This document shows positions 21,716 through 64,000 of a stretch of 64,000 bases of DNA, in pieces; the stretch's first letter is position 1; every line of letters starts with the position of its first letter. Location: the NCBI GenBank assembly GCA_011109175.1, contig RDEW01000003.1, positions 1,751,546-1,815,545 on the forward strand, given 5' to 3'. The position numbers and the translations under genes are program-made. Origin of the DNA: Dicyema japonicum (lineage: Eukaryota; Dicyemida; Rhombozoa; Dicyemidae). The notes beneath the pieces are model-generated. The model worked only from the letters and a program-made list of their open reading frames with translations. It had not been told where the DNA came from and searched no databases.

Positions 21716-22425
21716 TTATTTTTTAAGATTACGAGCATTCTGTTATACGGCCGATACGTGTTTTTGTGGGCTCAAGGAAGGCAAGTTCAAGTCTCCAATA
21801 GAACGTGCTAGGATTATGTGAGTAGTTTGCTTAGCGTTTCCTTGATCTTTGGTATTTTTCATTTCATCTACCAAAATCGAATTGACTGTAATTTTTGAGT
21901 GGGATGTTGTTATAAGGGTATTTTTCTAAACTTTGGATTTTTGAATAAATTATTTTTTCTAAATTTAGGTCAAGTTTTTGTCGGTAATGTCCCTGAGATT
22001 TTCAAAAATGTTGTTTCAGCCACGTGCACTTAGGAAAAAGCGCCATATAAAAATTTATCTCTTGAAAGGATCTTTTCAATCCATATCGAAACTAAAACCT
22101 ATATAATTCGCCACTAAATAGCATAAATAGTGAAAATCCATAAGAAAATAATGCCTTGGCGAACTTATCTTAAATTTTTAACTTTAATAAAATTTAGGTT
22201 GATTTTTTAGCTTTTATGGTCGAGAAGGAAGATAATCCAATTCCTTGGTGATTAATCACTGATGATCGCGTCACTTGTAAACCCTTGAGCATCGTAGATG
22301 CGTTAAACCTTCACCGAATAGACAGCAGCGAAATTCAAACAGGGGACCGCAATCAATCAAACGGTCGAATAATAAAATTATTTTTTTCCAAGAATTTAAA
22401 AACATATAGCCGCGTGGCGCCATGT
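21716..22425. other. AT-rich spacer
   Basis: Nothing recognised. Confidence 0.4.
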
Positions 22426-22497
22426 GGTGCTGTGGTGGTTAATTGGTTGAAGTTTTCTGCTTGCTTGTCTGTTCCTCCTCTCTCTTCCTAATAGAGT

Positions 22498-22559
22498 GGC
22501 GTCATGTGATCCACCTGTCTAGGTGACGCCCAGTGCCAGGCTGGCACGAAAAAGGATCA
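22498..22559 (+). ncRNA. HDV-like self-cleaving ribozyme
   Basis: P1 GGCGTC (22498-22503)/GACGCC (22525-22530); J1/2 ATG; P2 TGATCC (22507-22512)/GGATCA (22554-22559); P3 ACC/GGT enclosing loop TGTCTA; P4 GTGCCA-GGC-TGGCAC (22533-22547); J4/2 C-G-A-A-A-A-A with the C at 22547 in the catalytic position. All helices pair perfectly and nest in the HDV double-pseudoknot order. The predicted cut is just before G22498. Read by eye; activity untested. Confidence 0.85.
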
Positions 22560-22735
22560 TTTGCTCTTTCCCACTCCACTAGAGGGATTTCCACAACTGC
22601 ATGTAACGGACGTCTTACCTTTTATGCTGATTCCAGATGGACTCTGTTTCTGTAGAAATGGAAACTGGATACACTTAATTAGTTGTTAACTTTAACTTCT
22701 TTCTCGGTGTATCCGGGGTTAATTTTATTTATAAC
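22498..22735 (+). mobile_element. Short internally deleted LINE derivative (SIDE)
   Basis: About 240 bp. The 5' end is a complete HDV-like ribozyme (22498-22559). The 3' end reads CACTTAATTAGTTGTTAACT, CTTTCTCGGTGTATCCGGGG, TTAATTTTATTTAT, the same 3' signature as the LINE beginning on the opposite strand at 22733. It contains no coding potential, so its mobilisation would need a partner LINE. The layout, LINE 5' promoter/ribozyme plus LINE 3' end, resembles trypanosomatid NARTc/SIDER elements. A partial relative is at 10785-10900. Confidence 0.75.
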
Positions 22736-23830
22736 CCCGAAAAGGGAACACCAAGAAAGGAGTAAACCAACTAATTAAGTGATCCCGGTACGCCTCAATA
22801 GGATCGAGAGGTTTTTCCTATGTTCCTCCAGAGTACCCACGGCTTTCCTGAATAGCCGACGATCATCCTTCATTAGAGTTTGAAGAGGGGTGGGTTTTTT
22901 CTCCGATTTCGTGTATTTGAGGCCTTTAGCCTTGAATGGAAGAAACGACTTGTTTCTTGGCCACATAGACCGATGAAGCCGGAGCCATTATTTTTGATTG
23001 CGGCGTGGTCAAGCATTGGGGGGGGGGAAAGATCGGGGGTAGATTCGTTAAACGTGCCAGTTTGCCAATTAGGGAATTGATCTTGAATAAATTTGATAGG
23101 CCCATGAGGCACAAGCATACTCTATCGTCGGTTTTAGTTGATTGAAACAAGACGACAGCGCTTTCCTGTGACGGCCTGGACTTTAAGAGCGGTTTGATTA
23201 TATTTAGTTTCCTGAGACCCTTTGTCATAACGTTCTTCACATGTTGGGAAAATGTCATCAAAGGGTCAAATGTCACTCCCAGGATAGTTGGACGAATCTG
23301 TAATGGTAAGGAGTCTCCAAATGTTCAAATCCAGTGTATGTTTTTCTTTTCTGTCCGTGGTGAAGATTGTATACGTTGATTTATCCCTGGATATGGAGAC
23401 GATTCAACTTTAACCAGGCTCCCAGGTTGTCAATATGTGACTGAAGCTCTGATTTTGCTGCACCCACGTATTTGTTCCTGCTAGCGATGATTAGGTCGTC
23501 AGCATAAGTGAGAAGCATTGAATCTGGTCCTCCATGGAAGGGTAAATCGTTGAGGAATAAGTTGAATAACGCCGGAGAGAAAGGCGATCCTTGAGGGACG
23601 CCATTTGGTAGGAGACGGAACCTCGTGGCCTATACAGACACGTCCTCTTCTTCCGGAGAGAAAATTGGCTATCTATCTTTTCAAATCCGGCTGAATGGTG
23701 TCAAAAACCTTTTTCGTGAGAAATGTTCTCGAGACAGAATCGAACGCCTTCTTGATATCCAGGGAAATAAAGATATCGAGCCATCAATTCCCTCTTTATA
23801 ACAAATATTTTTTAAGAATTCCAGAAAATT
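22733..23830 (-). mobile_element. LINE-E, 5'-truncated, tail-to-tail with the SIDE
   Basis: Minus strand. From about 23830 it shows RT palm pieces (an NGVPQGSPFSP-like block near 23590, an LLTYADDLIIASRN block near 23500), LGVTFDPLMTFSQHVKNVM (23230-23280), and ends LLRRTGIT at 22775, followed by GGGATCACTTAATTAGTTGG and TTCGGGGTTATAAATAAAAT. Several frameshifts. A close relative of LINE-A by motif order and 3' end. It shares its A/T tail with the SIDE, so one may have inserted into the tail of the other. Confidence 0.85.
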
Positions 23831-25663: not shown

Positions 25664-26194
25664 ATGTTAGCGTGGTGTCATGTGGCTCACCAGAAACGGT
25701 GTCACCCATTCCAAAATGGAACGAAAAGAGCCAACAGCTTTTCCCCACCGTCTGGTGGTCCTTTCATCCCCTGTGTCTTCGACCCTGTCTGGTGTCCCCA
25801 TTTATCCAGACTTTTGATTCTTCAATGTGGGGACGTCGAAACCAATCCTGGTCCATGGAGAGGTTTTACAATTATACAACTGAATACGAATGGGATCAGG
25901 AAGAAAATCTTTGAACTCCGGGCACTCCTCCGCGAAAATGAGGCTGACCTCGCTTTAATACAGGAGTCCAAGCTATCTCCCTCCATACCAACACCTTCTT
26001 TTCCCGGATACACAGTGATCCGTAAAGATCGTCAGGGAGGACGCGGAAGAGGACTACTTACTATTATAAAGAACGATATTTCTTTTTATGGATACAACCC
26101 AACGAACCTCGGAGCTTCTTGGCTCCGACAAGACTTTGGAGCAGATTACTGTCAAAATCGAGTTATTCCCATCCTTTTGGATCCATTTGGCTAA
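25664..26194 (+). CDS. LINE-A leader, 2A motif and endonuclease (first part)
   Basis: A 176-residue frame. Residues 1-64 are a leader with a hydrophobic stretch (HLSRLLILQ) ending in CGDVETNPGP (25826-25855), a complete 2A consensus. The endonuclease follows at once: TIIQLNTNGIRKKIFELRAL, LALIQESKLSPS, a GRGLLTIIKND loop. The frame shifts near 26090; the rest (YIPPQASCPSSY, CGDLNARHPIWL, then SDHNPILLKLRGL) is in two other frames up to 27108. The only in-frame Met (25664) lies upstream of the predicted ribozyme cut at 25674. Confidence 0.88.
   Translation: MLAWCHVAHQKRCHPFQNGTKRANSFSPPSGGPFIPCVFDPVWCPHLSRLLILQCGDVETNPGPWRGFTIIQLNTNGIRKKIFELRALLRENEADLALIQESKLSPSIPTPSFPGYTVIRKDRQGGRGRGLLTIIKNDISFYGYNPTNLGASWLRQDFGADYCQNRVIPILLDPFG
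25674..25733 (+). ncRNA. HDV-like ribozyme at the LINE-A 5' end
   Basis: P1 GGTGTC (25674-25679)/GTCACC (25701-25706) with one T-T mismatch; J1/2 ATG; P2 TGGCTC (25683-25688)/GAGCCA (25728-25733); P3 ACC/GGT around AGAAAC; P4 TTCCA-AAA-TGGAA (25709-25721); J4/2 CGAAAA (25722-25727). Element spacing is almost the same as in the perfect version at 22498-22559. Confidence 0.75.
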
Positions 26195-26448
26195 TATATA
26201 TATTCCTCCACAAGCATCGTGTCCGTCATCTTACACCCCTGATTTATCACGCATTTCAACATTGAAGAATCTACTGTTATGTGGGGATCTTAATGCACGA
26301 CATCCAATTTGGCTCACTTCCCAATCCTCTGATAACCGAGAACTCATTGCAAATTATCTTCCTGACCTGATTATACTGAACAACCCTAACTCACATACGA
26401 GGACCCATTAAGGATGACTGATAGCTGCACATCCCCCGACTTAACATT

Positions 26449-27108
26449 ATGCTCACCTTCTCTGGCTGGACTCATTTCCTGGAACGTCTTTTACGGCTTC
26501 CCAGTGACCACAATCCAATCCTTCTAAAATTGAGAGGTCTTCGACGATACAGGAGACGGTCGGCGGAATCAAAAAGATTCAAGGATTATACGAAGGTTGA
26601 CTGGTCTGGTTTCAGTAACCTTGTGGATAAATTCTTGGCCGGGAGATTATCCTTCCCAATACGCTCTATTGACGAGGCCGCAGAAATTATCAGCGCTGCC
26701 ATTCAGAAAGCTGACCATATTTTTATTCCTATATCGTCATACAAGAAGTTTATTCCTACCCTCAGCTCTTATACAATAAGTCTTATAAAACAAAGAGACC
26801 GGCTGAAGAGATGCCATCTGTTGGACATGAAGTCTTTGACAGCCCTCAGACAACTGAATAAAAGAATCTGTCAGAGCATAAAAGAACACAAGGACAAGAG
26901 ATGGCAGCATCTAGTTAACCACCTCGACAGGAAAAGTACATCCCGACACTTCTGGAAAACTTTTAAACAAGTCAAGTCGGAGCTGGATGATGCAGACGGA
27001 ACCGGAAAGTCTTCTCCTGAACACTTATGCCACCTACATCCTAACATCCTTATGAAACATTACGCTGGAATTAGCTTCAAACCATTCTCGAAACACCTGG
27101 ACATTTAG
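26449..27108 (+). pseudogene. LINE-A endonuclease end and EN-RT linker
   Basis: Starts in the last endonuclease motif (LPSDHNPILLKLRGL, the SDH box). It continues as the basic, helical linker typical between endonuclease and RT (for example RLKRCHLLDMKSLTALRQLN). A stop at 27106 falls just before the RT entry block, which continues as ACGPDKVSS up to the Ginger insertion. Confidence 0.85.
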
Positions 27109-27313
27109 GTGCGTGCCCATAAACCGAAGAAGGAACCTTATCACGAACTATTCACAGATGACCAAGTCTTGGATGTGATCACCAGATTAAAAAGCTCACG
27201 GGCGTGCGGGCCTGACAAAGTATCCTCTATTCTGTCACATGGGCGGCGCGTAACGCATGGGCAGCCTGTTACATTTTTTCGACCTTGAAAAGGTCTTTTG
27301 ATTATCCGACATT

Positions 27314-27415
27314 ATTATTATTAATGTCGGATCACTGGTCAAAGGAAAGAAATAAAAGTTCTCATCTAACTAAGTGATCCCAGACCGACAAAGATGAGGA
27401 TGAGTCCCTCATTGG
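27314..27415 (-). mobile_element. LINE tail inserted in the Ginger element
   Basis: The minus strand reads GGGATCACTTAGTTAGATGA, the LINE 3' signature, preceded by residual C-terminal coding. It is bounded by near-identical copies of GATTATC(C/T)GACATT (27299-27312 and 27416-27429), a plausible target-site duplication of about 14 bp. Confidence 0.65.
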
Positions 27416-27552
27416 ATTATCTGACATTTAATTTTATATATCCGATTTATATCTTGATTTAATCCTGTTAAATTAGTTTTTTATTTATAAATGTTATGAT
27501 TATAAAGATTTTATTTTTTTATAGCGGTAAACCTAGATTTCTAGCGTGATTT

Positions 27553-28990
27553 ATAGCATGGAAGATTATTTTGTTGCAATGGCTTCTTACAAGGGTTTTG
27601 TGAAAGATTGCGTTGAATATCAAACTTTAAAAGATGCTTTGCATGATAAATTCCCGAAAACCTTCCGAGGCACCGAAAATATAGGCTTGTAAAGAAGATA
27701 GAGAATTTTTCTATTATCAATGACAGGTATTGTAAATTTTCAATAATTTTAGACTGTATCTTAAATCAACTGATCCCAAGTTAGTCATATCCCTGGATAA
27801 TGAAACCGAAATGGAGCATGTTGCGAAATCGTTGCACGAGTTTTCACACGGAGGAGTCAATAAAATTGAGTATGAATGTCGACAAAGATACTTCACTGTA
27901 AAGAATGAGATTATCAGAAAAGTCATTCGAAATTGTGAAGTCTGCAAATTTTCGCGTTCTTTAAAAATTCGTGATTTTTTATAATTGTAGATTGGAGATA
28001 TAAATCACCATGTGTTTGGTTCTTCTCCAAATGAACGTTTTCAGGTAGATCTAATAGACCTGAAAAAATTTTCAACATTAAATGAAAATTTCAAATGGAT
28101 TTTAACGGTCATTGACATATATAGTAGGCTGGTTTTTTTAATTTATAGATTCGCTTTTGTACGACCACTCTATAATAAGTCTGGTAAAGAAATATCCACC
28201 TGAATGGGCCATGTAAATTTCTTCAGTCGGACAATGGTTCTGAATTTAAAAATCAAGAAATAACAAAATTTGCGAAGATTTTAACATTAAGCAAATTCAC
28301 GGAAGGCCTAACAATCCACGAGCACAAGGAATTGTCGAAAGATTTAATCAGACGATCACGAGGAAGTTGTCAAAAATGCTGGATAACAGTGAAAAAAAGT
28401 GGTTTGATAAATTAGAAAGTGCTGTCTACAGTTACAACATATCGGTCCATTTCATTTTCTAACGAAAAGTCCTTTCGAAAGATATCGAGGAATTAAGGGA
28501 ATAAATTCAATAATTAATGGTTATACTTATATCATTATGACTTAGATAATTTAAGTGATGAGTGTGCGATTCCAGAACAAATTGACGATTTGGTTAATTG
28601 TTCGACTCCAGAATCTATTGAAAAATCACGTAGTTTGATTTAAAAAATTTATATCTAGATAAATCCCAGTCAGATAATTTGCGTCCGAATGCGAAGAGAT
28701 TCAACTTCGAAATTAAATCGATTGAAGAAAATTCAAATTATTACAAAGCTATGAACAGGAAAATGAATGTTCATAATAGTAAATATACTTTTAACATGGG
28801 AGATAAAGTATGAATCAAAAACATTAATAAATAGGTTCGGGCTAAAAAGGACTTTGGAACAAATCCCTCATTGCGACTGGATAAGTTTGAGTCTCAGTAT
28901 TATCCAGTTGCAGAAATAATTATTTTATCGAATAATCGCGTGGAGGTAGTTTTAAATAGTTTAATTTTTGAACTCTTTTTCATTAATAAA
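27553..28990 (+). pseudogene. Ginger transposase (HHCC plus DDE integrase)
   Basis: The start region (MEDYFVAMASYKGFVKDC) is followed by a possible 26-nt GT-AG intron at 27727-27752 whose removal keeps the frame (NDR/LYLK). Then an integrase zinc domain H-x3-H (HEFSH) with NCEVC at about 27927-27945. The DDE core: FQVDLIDL (first Asp, about 28041), LQSDNGSEF (second Asp, about 28230) and GIVERFNQTI (Glu, about 28337). Stops and frame changes lie near 27990, 28205 and 28255-28290, with a decayed C-terminus to about 28990. Probably dead but with all three catalytic residues still readable. Confidence 0.85.
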
Positions 28991-29238
28991 TTCTCTTTAA
29001 AATGAAAAAAAAAAAAAAATTTGATAGATAAAAAATTCGAAAGGAGAAATATCGACTGTATTAATGAGTAGACTAAAAAAAGTTACTTAAATTTAATTTT
29101 TTGTGGTTAATAAATCATTTATAAAATTAATTGAAGTTAATCTTGGCTTAAGGTTATAAAATTAATTGAAGTTAATCTTGGTTCAAGGTTAATGTAACAG
29201 GCTGCCCATAGGTAACGCTTGGCCCATGTGACATATTC

Positions 29239-29675
29239 ACCTAAAACACCTAAGCCACTACGCAATTGGCTACCTCACGCATATATACAACCTGTCCATT
29301 AACTATAATATTATTCCTAAGATTTGGAAGAATTCTATCATCAGACCGATATTGAAGGCTGGGAAACCAGAGACAGAACCTTCATCCTACAGGCCTATTT
29401 CCGTTACCAGCACACTGTCAAAAATTATGGAGAAACTTGTATTATCAGTCATTATTCCGTATCTTCCGCGTCCTATATTTCAACATGGTTTCCTCCGCGG
29501 TAGGTCCACCGCTACATACTTGGCAACTTTATCGCAGTTCATTGCCGACGGTTTTAACACCCATCTCCCGCCTCACAAACGCACAATCTTGGTTTCTATT
29601 GACATCAACAAAGCCTTTGACACTGTTTCGAGGAAAATCTTGGTTGGAAAAATACTAATATTCGTCCGAATGTGA
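29239..29675 (+). pseudogene. LINE-A RT fingers
   Basis: Resumes the RT after the Ginger insertion: RPILKAGKPETEPSSYRPIS, KIMEKLVLSVIIPYLP, FQHGFLRGRSTATYLATLSQ, TILVSIDINKAFDTVSRKIL (the first catalytic Asp block). The frame shifts by one base near 29650 relative to the RT palm that follows. Confidence 0.9.
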
Positions 29676-30616
29676 AACTATGGCTGGCCAACTTTTTGTC
29701 TGGAAGACGTGGAAGAGTAGTCAGTGGTGATCTCAGATCTAGATCACGATTACTACCGAACGGGGTACCCCAGGGGTCTCCACTTTCACCAATTCTATTC
29801 AACCTTTTCCTACACGACCTACCTAATGATGGAGACGAAGATTCCCTGTTATTATCCTACGCAGACGACGTAGTCATTGCAATACGGAACCGCTCGACTC
29901 AAGTCGCATCCCTTAAAACTCAGACAAAATTGAACATTCTCCACGATTGGATTGCTGGCAATCGATTAACGATTTCTGCAACCAAGTCTATCTGTTCCAC
30001 ATTCACGTCGGACCGTCGTTCCAAGGATGAACCGAGTCTTTTCATTGGTCCCACTAGGATTCCAGTGACAAAGTCCCCCATTGTCCTTGGAGTCAAGTAC
30101 GACACCCTTCTCAAATTCAACTCCCACGCAACAGACATGATCACCAGGGGCCTCCAGAAAGTTAACGTTATACGCGCCCTTGTTCGGAGGACCACGAGGA
30201 ACATGGACTTTTCCGTTTCTACACTCTACCAACAAACAATCGCGCCTGCCATTGAGTATGCCTCCGTTGCATGGAGATTCGGGCTATCGGAGTCTTTGGT
30301 CCAAAGAATCAACTCGATATACCGGAAAACAATCAGTATGCTTTCCCCACGTAATGGATCAACAGTCGACCCACTACTCATGGAAGCTAAGATCCGTAGT
30401 CGTGGCTCCGGATTTCTTCGCCTCTGTGAGGAAGATGGAAATCCGCTTCGCCTAATCCTTCCCATGGCAAGAGAAAACCGATTGGATAAGAAATTCCCCT
30501 CCCCGATCGGATTCCTCTGCAAAACCGAGAGAAGGCTCTTCCGGAAAGTAGTGGGGACGATGGAGGATCACAGACGTCGAATGGCACAAGTGATTGCGAG
30601 GACTGGGATCACCTAA
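29672..30616 (+). CDS. LINE-A reverse transcriptase palm, thumb and C-terminus
   Basis: 314 residues, uninterrupted. Motifs: KLWLANFLSGRRGRVV, LLPNGVPQGSPLSPILFNLF (template/primer grip), LLSYADDVVIAIRN (catalytic YADD), NRLTISATKS, LGVKYDTLLKF, then the C-terminal helix region ending ARTGIT. The start Met is only the first one in frame; in the intact element this is the continuation of one long polyprotein. The same ..GIT end closes LINE-E and LINE-D, showing that the families are related. Confidence 0.92.
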   Translation: MKLWLANFLSGRRGRVVSGDLRSRSRLLPNGVPQGSPLSPILFNLFLHDLPNDGDEDSLLLSYADDVVIAIRNRSTQVASLKTQTKLNILHDWIAGNRLTISATKSICSTFTSDRRSKDEPSLFIGPTRIPVTKSPIVLGVKYDTLLKFNSHATDMITRGLQKVNVIRALVRRTTRNMDFSVSTLYQQTIAPAIEYASVAWRFGLSESLVQRINSIYRKTISMLSPRNGSTVDPLLMEAKIRSRGSGFLRLCEEDGNPLRLILPMARENRLDKKFPSPIGFLCKTERRLFRKVVGTMEDHRRRMAQVIARTGIT

Positions 30617-30690
30617 CTGTCTGACTCTTTTGTCTTTCTTTCTCGGTGTTCCCGGGGTTATTAAAATAAAAATAAATAAATAAATAAACA

Positions 30691-61489: not shown

Positions 61490-62120
61490 AAATGTGATTA
61501 AAAAAAATTATCATTTTATCTAATTATTTTTCATGATAAATGTAGATTATAAAATAATAGTCCAAAGTAGAACTTATGAAACAATACTTGTCCTTTACAT
61601 TTCCTGGTTCACAAAACGTGTTAAATAAGACGGAACCTCCCTTCAAATCCTCTAATTTTGAGCCAAATGGGAATTAAACACAGAATGTCGGCATATATGG
61701 GACTCAAAGATTATATAGCAATAATTAAATGTAATTTATTAAAAAATAACTCCCTATAGAGAAAGGAATATGCTATTAATTAAAGATACCACTAGTGACA
61801 CTAGGATCACTTAATTATACGATAACTTCTCTTAGTGGGTTAATGTTATAAAGTAAAACTGATATAAAATTTATTTATTTCCAGCAAAGACAACGAATGG
61901 TATATTTTTAACGTTAGTTCTCCATTGGGAATTTATACTCATAAAGGTCACATTTTCTGTCTCCAAATTATCAACACAAACTAATCCTCACCAAACACAA
62001 AACCTGTAAAATGACTATTCGACCTCGCTTTACACACAATCCTCGTGACCCCAAATATTTTATACATATTCTTATGTCTACTTTCCTTTGGCTTGTTAAT
62101 TCGTACTAAAATCACAACTA
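61490..62120. other. AT-rich spacer downstream of PACS
   Basis: No recognised element. Could hold the 3'UTR of the PACS gene. Confidence 0.4.
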
Positions 62121-64000
62121 TTAACTACACATGGACTTTTTGTCAGCGACAACAAACTCCAAGGACAAAGAGTTATTGTCAACCAATTGGTTCCTCACCA
62201 CAAAGGAAATCACGTTTATTTTTATGGTATATTTCCCTCCGTCCTTCTTTAATAGCTTCTCTAGTCGCTCATTCATGTCGTTTTTGTTTTCATCAAAGCT
62301 TATATCCACGTGCAAGGAAATTTTAGGTATATATGAATCGCTGATACTGCAAATGAAACCCTCAGGCTACCTCGCCTTTAATTCCTCAGAATTTTTGGTC
62401 TGTTTGCCAACCTTTAGGCCGTCATGTCGGTCATCATCCACACTAAATACACACAAGTAAACCAGAGGATGACTGCGAATTGGTAAACTTGAGAGAAAGT
62501 TCCTTAAGTAAAAAAACTCTTAAATACAGCAACAAGTGGGATGAACTGATCATTCAATTGAGGGATCATCACTTCTGCGATGGGAATTCTGAGAACGTGG
62601 ATAACCTTAGATAGGTAATTCTTGACCTTGCTCACAACTAGGGGATATTAAAGAAAGATACATTCAGGAGTATTGAATGAAGACAAAATGCAGTCCAAGT
62701 ACATATCGTCATGGGAGGCAATTATCTTGGCAATAGGACTCTCAGCTAAAATAGTAAAATTAAAAGACCGATCGGTATGTAGTAAAACACAAAGAACGAC
62801 GTCCATATTGGGGCCTTAATGGATAGCTTGCTTATGTAGGAACGAACAAAGGTCGCCAAAAATGACTCAGAGACAAACAAGGCGATCCTCATTCGCCCAG
62901 GCTCGTCAACACTGCGGTCACATCTACAAGTAAAATACAATGGTTACATTTGTTGCAGTCTTAGTACTAATTCTGTAATAAACTGATCAATCTGAAGCTG
63001 TGTGAGTACAATTGGAAGCTCTAGCAACGGGAAATGCTCAGAAAAGAATTTATCCTAACAATTTTGACAGAAATAGACATTTAATAAGGAGTCTTCCTTT
63101 CCCTCTTCATAAATTGCGATGGAAGATGGGAGTTCTCTGTTATTGAAGAACATTGACGTGGACTAAGTAATAATAAACTATACATAGTCAGATTCTAGGA
63201 AAACTGAACGAGAGGTAAAATAGGGAATTGGAGGCTGGGAGATGGAACTGTCGCTTGACAAAAAGTCAGATTTAAGGCTGGAGGATGAAGAGTGAAAAAT
63301 ATGTGGTCTATTAATTATTCAGCAATGTAAACTGAAGTCGGGGACGATGAGAATCAGAAAGACTATGAAACGTAGAAAATCCATCCAATTCATTCATAAT
63401 CATTTGGAGTTTCTTGGAATCATGCTCACTTCCAGCCTGAAATAAGCGAAAAATGACTGTAATGTTTAGTAAATCGTGATCTTGTGACCATTTTGAGCAA
63501 CTTTGTCATTAATTTATGCTGTCTCTTAAAATAATTCCAAAAATTACAAAATTAGAAATCTTATCGTAGTTATCAAATTCTTCGTTCGTCAGTGCAGTAC
63601 AGAGGTGAGAACTAACCGAAAGACTCAATTTGGCAGGTCCTTCGCAGCATCCAGAAGAGTAGAGATCAATCCGGCGATCAAATCCTCGCTGATAGACCTC
63701 ATCCAACGAGATTAGACCAGATGCAATAGTTTTGAAGCCCAGCATCTTCCGATTCTTGTAGGTCTTTCGTCGCTGAATCATTATAATCATTTTATTAGCT
63801 TCAACATTCTTGATGAAATGTTGGTACTGCAAAATAACACTTTAAAACACCTGGATTCTCCATTCCTCGTTGATGGAGATGTTTTTGCTGTCTTCAAGGT
63901 TAATTTCCGCGGTCCTGACTGTTTGACGTGTTCCCTAGAATAAAAAGGAGGGATACAGTCAATTTCACGGCAATTATAACAGATTTGACTTGGAGAAGTT
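62121..64000 (-). CDS. PACS: PACS-type sorting adaptor, 5' end outside window
   Basis: Cytosolic adaptor for acidic-cluster cargo between endosomes and the trans-Golgi network. The right-most exons give ..EEWRIQ, a 24-nt intron (about 63829-63852), then [20 protein letters not shown] and [20 protein letters not shown], the furin-binding region (PACS: 'dANkl.imlQRRKrYKNRtilGyKTLA.GLInm'). Middle exons are Ser-rich. The C-terminal part includes [19 protein letters not shown] then IKAPIW (62746-62900), [44 protein letters not shown], and the last exon (to 62121) [19 protein letters not shown]. Introns are tiny as elsewhere; not all junctions are resolved. N-terminus missing. Confidence 0.85.

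Follow-up and report, generated by a model that had tools for sequence, protein, structure and literature searches.

Positions 22498–22559 of the 64,000-nucleotide (nt) stretch of the Dicyema japonicum genome analysed here (contig RDEW01000003.1; hereafter the window) can be folded into a double pseudoknot resembling the hepatitis delta virus (HDV) ribozyme. The motif lies in a short interspersed element (SINE)-like retroelement, named here SINE A, and the fold recurs in long interspersed elements (LINEs) of the same genome. On balance, we consider it probable that the motif belongs to a conserved HDV-like double pseudoknot of a LINE/SINE superfamily, which serves mainly as a structured 5′ module and whose cleavage is slow, conditional or lost. 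Comparison of the group consensuses indicates that the sequences of helices P2 and P4 differ between groups yet stay paired. The simplest origin of the 5′ RNA module would be in LINEs, from which SINEs that arose by internal deletion took it over. When an RNA serves as template for reverse transcription, the fold would act chiefly as a stable structured 5′ module, protecting the RNA or contributing to template function, as has been suggested for R2 templates. In LINE A, E and F, self-cleavage before the first nucleotide of P1 (G1) would proceed slowly, depend on conditions or have been lost; SINE A, SINE C and B possibly retain it.

The motif and the element that carries it

Helices P1 to P4 and the joining segment J4/2 occur in HDV order within 62 nt and with no mismatch, and their topology is that of the HDV ribozyme. 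The six-base-pair P1, the ATG joiner, the six-base-pair P2, the three-base-pair P3 and the six-base loop L3 described in an earlier reading of the sequence alone (the original prediction) are all confirmed. The parts of the motif are the following:

22498–22559, + strand: HDV-ribozyme-like double pseudoknot, the second and complete 5′ module of SINE A (from the descriptor fold, its copies and other groups)
22498–22503, + strand: P1 5′ strand GGCGTC, partner GACGCC at 22525–22530; predicted cut immediately 5′ of 22498
22504–22506, + strand: J1/2, ATG, between the P1 and P2 5′ strands
22507–22512, + strand: P2 5′ strand TGATCC, partner GGATCA at 22554–22559; covaries between groups
22513–22524, + strand: P3, ACC (22513–22515) with GGT (22522–22524), and L3 TGTCTA (22516–22521)
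22533–22547, + strand: P4 hairpin; C22547 is either the P4-closing base or the first base of J4/2
22547–22553, + strand: J4/2 CGAAAAA with the candidate catalytic C (column conservation in alignment A1, below)

A six-base-pair P4 and a J4/2 beginning CGAA had also been described. Each is present, but the two cannot be formed at once: a P4 of six pairs (22533–22538 with 22542–22547) consumes C22547, which was also claimed as the first base of J4/2, and leaving C22547 free gives a P4 of five pairs (22534–22538 with 22542–22546). The base T22542 is rare, being found also in copy L008; most listed SINE A copies have four P4 pairs and a 5-nt loop.

When only one copy is considered, the view that such an arrangement is very unlikely to arise by chance does not stand. 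In 100 dinucleotide shuffles of one window strand, a strict zero-mismatch descriptor matched 25 times, 23 shuffles holding at least one match, and it has two further matches in the real window (18021 on the + strand and 62907 on the − strand). Because perfect matches occur in so many shuffles, the motif as a lone copy is weak evidence, and it is the comparison between groups that carries the support. With a laxer, scored descriptor, the motif (40.2) exceeded the best score of every one of eight shuffles (28.7–37.3) and the LINE copy at 25674 (34.7) was beaten by one of them; this home-made descriptor is too noisy to count as evidence, since it gives 83 matches on both window strands and 32–51 per shuffled strand. 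A chance pseudoknot in a single repeat family would agree with the finding that a lone perfect match is not rare, but it would not account for different strands that still match in LINE A, B, E, F, SINE C and D, and we regard it as the least probable of the explanations weighed here.

The element around the motif has these features:

22409–22723, + strand: SINE A, a SINE-like element of about 315 base pairs, 5′ end GCCGCGTGGCGCC.., 3′ end ..CCGGGGTTAAT(AAAT)n
22409–22430, + strand: first, partial 5′ module, GCCGCGT then GGCGCCATGTGGTGC; 5′ strands only, without a local P1′ or P2′
22489–22497, + strand: TAATAGAGT, counterpart of the LINE leader TTAGCGT, abutting the predicted scissile bond on its 5′ side (SINE/LINE alignment from 22492)
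22697–22721, + strand: SINE 3′ tail common to the LINE 3′ end (92% over 25 nt versus 30636–30660)

The motif thus belongs to a short retroelement, as originally proposed, but begins 89 nt inside it rather than at the 5′ end. In seven copies, the match to the window extends from 22404–22410 to 22721–22724, with divergent sequence outside these bounds. Pattern searches covered 64.67 Mb of the genome in 191 contigs, in which a SINE A body pattern with up to three mismatches gave 542 matches (263 + 279) and its reversed control none. By eye, the partial first module resembles the LINE 5′ end TTAGCGT/GGTGTCATGTGG. A polymerase III promoter for SINE A was set aside by eye, there being internal TTTT runs and no clear B box. 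At the 3′ side of the element, a long hairpin (22672–22790) has apparently arisen where the SINE 3′ tail meets the tail of a second, oppositely oriented retroelement. It attracts sub-threshold Rfam microRNA matches (22672–22781), which by eye look like an effect of these two tails abutting in opposite orientation.

Matched helices across LINE and SINE groups

A P2–P3–L3 core pattern, CATGTGNNNCACCN{5,8}GGTGNC, gave 740 genome matches (378 + 362) and its reversed control none; a 5′ pattern gave 515 (262 + 253), again with an empty control. From 20 regions with distinct cores together with earlier loci, we distinguished the groups SINE A, LINE A, B, D, E, F, SINE C and A2 (labels of this analysis), A2 being a SINE A-like set with a 7-nt L3. 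The nested P1–P4 pseudoknot order with J4/2 is clear in SINE A, LINE A, B and SINE C, and is present with a weaker P1 in D, E and F. P1 is good in SINE A, and both P1 and L3 are poor in LINE A and F. Motifs of the 2A type occur downstream of the fold in LINE A, in E (L069 and L087) and in one B copy (L042). The HDV-like fold first described on a short retroelement is also found on related LINEs, with P2 and P4 matched within seven group consensuses but not across groups whose strands differ.

MAFFT fails to align P4 and P2′ between groups, and pairs were therefore counted by a script. It returned 97 instances (77 unique), for which a minimum score and the J4/2 C were required, so that the paired percentages are biased upward; a looser version returned 117 instances, including chance matches and decayed copies. 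Across the seven consensuses, P2 shows no mismatch in 42 cells within groups and a mean of 1.11 mismatches per cross pairing. Only 6 of 5,040 re-pairings of the P2 strands reach zero mismatches, which is the number expected from the identical P2 strands of B, E and F. For P4, none of 29 cells is mismatched within groups and 2 of 5,040 re-pairings are as good. Both sides of a pair change between consensuses at P2 pairs 1, 3, 4 and 5; in P1 this occurs only at pair 3 (C-G to U-A). We take these figures as supportive of covariation rather than as a formal test of it.

A second line of evidence is free of the bias introduced by selecting on pairing and rests on translations. The shared block CATGTGG(C/T)TCACC is read as ..MLAWCHVAHQ.. 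in LINE A and as ..LACVMWFT.. in LINE E (L069 and L087), both en route to 2A motifs. Because LINE A and LINE E read the block in different frames, its conservation is not an amino-acid constraint and, on these translations, it is the nucleotides and not the protein that are conserved. A coding explanation, by which the conserved sequence encodes an N-terminal peptide ahead of 2A, would agree with the frame of LINE A, which is open from its ATG to DVETNPGP in many listed copies; the use of another frame over the same nucleotides in LINE E, and the presence of the fold in a SINE where the window list of open reading frames (ORFs) has none of at least 100 amino acids overlapping it, make this explanation very improbable.

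In another alternative, the conserved block TTAGCGTGGYGYCATGTGG would be an internal DNA promoter comparable to Pr77 of trypanosomatids, the RNA pairing being a by-product or a relic. The block recurs at element 5′ ends, including the partial first SINE module that has no 3′ partners, and Pr77 is described in parts of two reports as both promoter and ribozyme (PMC4035085, PMC4748587). A promoter leaves unexplained the matched differences in P2′ and P4 and the spacing of the C and A run further 3′; as a full explanation we judge it unlikely, if the least unlikely of the alternatives. By analogy with Pr77, it is plausible that the same DNA may also serve as a promoter in addition to encoding a structured module.

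Several observations weigh against a conserved, structured HDV-like module or against its description as a textbook ribozyme. The covariation that the original prediction proposed to look for is seen in P2 and P4, whereas P1 shows none that is group-specific (4 of 42 cells mismatched; 720 of 5,040 re-pairings equal); P1 pair 5 is U·U in all 16 unique LINE A instances, and the P1 of group F is weak. The P2′ and P4 strands were found partly through their pairing, which favours covariation in the figures given above, and group D is one copy read by eye. The Rfam HDV families, a check the original prediction had itself suggested, have no match in the whole window at the gathering threshold and none in 22300–22800 at E values up to 10, the LINE module lying outside this lax-threshold search; the description of the motif as a textbook ribozyme is not borne out by this result. 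The module is 5′-terminal in LINE A but internal in the SINE, so that end protection would be less direct there. Lastly, in alignment A1 (16 chosen sequences) the column of C22547 is at least 90% C and the A columns 22549–22552 are invariant or nearly so, and the conserved J4/2 C hints that catalysis matters, although in R2 a C-to-A change at this place severely inhibits insertion as well. In LINE A, B, F and SINE C, P4 does not include the conserved C, which precedes the A run; the C could close P4 in SINE A, D and E.

LINE A and the 5′ ends of inserted copies

The window holds a LINE A copy downstream of SINE A and a second LINE A fold:

25664–30688, + strand: LINE A copy, frame-broken, with its own ATG start, the same fold, a 2A motif and a reverse transcriptase
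25664–25673, + strand: LINE A leader ATGTTAGCGT, whose ATG is in frame with the 2A peptide and upstream of the predicted cut
25674–25733, + strand: LINE A HDV-like fold, P1 GGTGTC/GTCACC (one U·U), P2 TGGCTC/GAGCCA, P4 TTCC(A)/(T)GGAA, J4/2 CGAAAA
25832–25855, + strand: 2A-like motif DVETNPGP
1052–1111, − strand: second LINE A HDV-like fold of the window (reverse-strand position 62890)

A Pfam scan of LINE A recognized RVT_1 only, and Pfam detected no endonuclease in the two pieces of the N-terminal part that were scanned; because elements of this kind generally have one, we assume that it lies between 2A and the reverse transcriptase. In blastn comparison (plus strand, E up to 1), LINE positions 25668–25748 align with SINE positions 22492–22574 (67% over 83 nt, E value 4.5e-6). 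The similarity between the two window elements is confined to this 5′ module and to the 3′ tail noted above and, because they align only there, SINE A seems to derive from a LINE by internal deletion, its middle part being unrelated.

The 5′ ends of inserted copies bear directly on cleavage. A LINE A pattern has 72 genome matches, of which 70 could be mapped. The leader is retained in 59 of these, with an ATG 10–13 nt upstream of G1 in 58: 31 copies align from ATGTTGTTAGCGT (one, L183, degenerate) and 28 from TGTTAGCGT directly before G1, 27 of the latter being preceded by A and hence having the ATG. A single copy (L019) starts at G1 without a leader, four start 6–37 nt downstream and six have a partial or degenerate leader. 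Flanks diverge within a few bases upstream of the ATG in most rows, some sharing A-rich or TTTTGA stretches. For SINE A, 60 further copies were mapped, among which those lacking the exact head pattern were over-represented; 37 align from 22409 (base 1 of the reference), 3 from 22410, 2 from 22413 and 18 later, and none starts at the predicted cut at 22498, the nearest starts being 22495 and 22497. Target-site duplications are visible by eye in several of these 60 rows. Neither the 70 LINE A copies nor the 60 SINE A copies show the spike of 5′ ends at the predicted cut that would be a trace of cleavage in vivo, contrary to the cleavage-made 5′ ends implied by the original prediction. Because the inserted copies keep sequence upstream of the predicted bond, it follows that the template RNAs behind most of the LINE A and SINE A copies examined were not cut at it.

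Two side observations concern these ends. The LINE A ORF is almost leaderless: the copies start with their own ATG or no more than a few nt away from it. In five copies (L021, L022, L037, L158 and L173), a second TTAGCG precedes the first by 11–24 nt, a pattern suggestive of double copying of the 5′ end at the junction.

In the canonical explanation, the 5′ end of the mobile RNA would be generated, as it is in R2 and L1Tc, by an active HDV-like ribozyme that cleaves co-transcripts before G1. This explanation has in its favour the right helix order, a C-N-A-A J4/2, the perfect P1 of SINE A and a location near the LINE 5′ end. The 5′ ends just described speak against it, as do the lack of the L3 U..G signature in 73 of 77 unique instances and the U·U pair in P1 of LINE A. 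The start codon poses a further difficulty: in the window LINE A copy and most listed relatives the leader ATG opens a frame through the fold to DVETNPGP, and in the window copy's frame the predicted cut would strip the sole ATG upstream of the 2A peptide. We consider the canonical explanation unlikely.

The same position of the start codon, upstream of the scissile bond with the fold occupying the first codons of the ORF, is the basis of a quite unlikely alternative in which the ribozyme is gated by translation. Ribosomes on LINE A RNA would keep the fold open and the RNA whole, and untranslated transcripts would cut off their own start codon. If this were true, only translated RNAs would survive to reverse transcription, a built-in cis preference. 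In LINE E, J1/2 contains an in-frame AUG that lies 3′ of the cut, and this arrangement would represent the uncoupled form.

Catalytic features and known systems

The L3 signature with U first and G sixth is found in 4 of the 77 unique instances, all of them SINE C, a further departure from a textbook ribozyme. The SINE A type, U..A, accounts for 40 of the 77, and LINE A has A..U or A..C. In the part of the published work that deals with L3 U23/G28 mutants, U/A, U/U, C/A and G/G are partly active and U23A and G/U inactive. Judged by these activities, slow cutting might be expected of SINE A and B, and none of LINE A, E and F, with the reservation that the L3 register is uncertain here, an 8-nt register giving LINE A C/A. 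For P1.1, the helix of one or two pairs that links L3 with J1/4, two pairs are possible by eye, and again with an uncertain register, in SINE A, A2 and D, and one (in some cases G·U) elsewhere.

Among known systems, L1Tc/NARTc and SIDER, with their Pr77/L1TcRz module, offer a close likeness: they combine a LINE that has a 5′ HDV-like fold and 2A with short, internally deleted partners sharing its 5′ module and 3′ end, as LINE A and SINE A do, and SIDER2 has two tandem 5′ Pr77 modules, the closest parallel to the partial and full modules of SINE A (PMC4035085, PMC4748587). Unlike in L1Tc, the predicted cut is here preceded by a start codon in LINE A and by 89 nt of element sequence in SINE A, and the likeness does not imply common descent. 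R2, a non-LTR (long terminal repeat) element, likewise carries an HDV-like fold 5′-terminally, with an imperfect P1 and P2 in many R2s (PMC3774820). According to the portion of PMC3774820 that treats cleavage, however, R2 RNA is cut at the 5′ junction or 9–36 nt upstream of it, whereas the cut predicted here is downstream of the junction; R2 is also site-specific in 28S, whereas the present elements are dispersed. For R2 templates, the part of one report that concerns insertion states that a 5′ HDV-like fold raises it, the authors favouring the structure itself as the cause, and that loss of the P2 3′ strand or a catalytic C-to-A change severely inhibits insertion, leaderless versions being intermediate (PMC11331408). 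The helix topology and a J4/2 C with A residues are shared with HDV, CPEB3 and other drz ribozymes, as these are presented in portions of PMC4908430 and PMC10879173.

HDV-like folds on LINEs and SINEs are already known in kind. The new points are the host group, the absence of the signature from most L3 loops and a fold placed downstream of the element start. No report of an HDV-like ribozyme from dicyemids was found in the searches of open-licence papers, in agreement with the original prediction. The groups mostly lack the L3 signature by which such ribozymes are found and defined, and their range from good (SINE A) to poor P1 and L3 (LINE A and F) suits the question of which features catalysis needs. 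The case also splits two roles usually joined in non-LTR elements, that of the fold as a 5′ module and that of cleavage as the maker of the 5′ end.

Several LINE groups seem to bear 2A peptides: L098 and L113 hold DVEENPGP, and a further 2A-like motif, DVEPNPGP, lies on the − strand of the window at reverse position 61490 (about 2511 of the + strand) in a different frame context.

The G+C content of the window is 37.9%. The D. japonicum genome is given in PMC6736024 as 67.5 Mb with 36.7% G+C, a mean intron of 38 bp and 49% repeats. Among 12 reverse transcriptase relatives, an Octopus sinensis protein, identical at 52% of positions over 30% of the query, is the only one from a named animal. Dicyemids have octopuses as hosts; the related reverse transcriptase segment in the O. 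sinensis gene model LOC115231815, on a 388-kb contig, may belong to a LINE that the two share or that was transferred, or may be DNA of the parasite within the assembly of its host. In actin, gaps of 10–47 nt between neighbouring profile matches at four picked places suggest very short introns, the introns themselves being unmapped.
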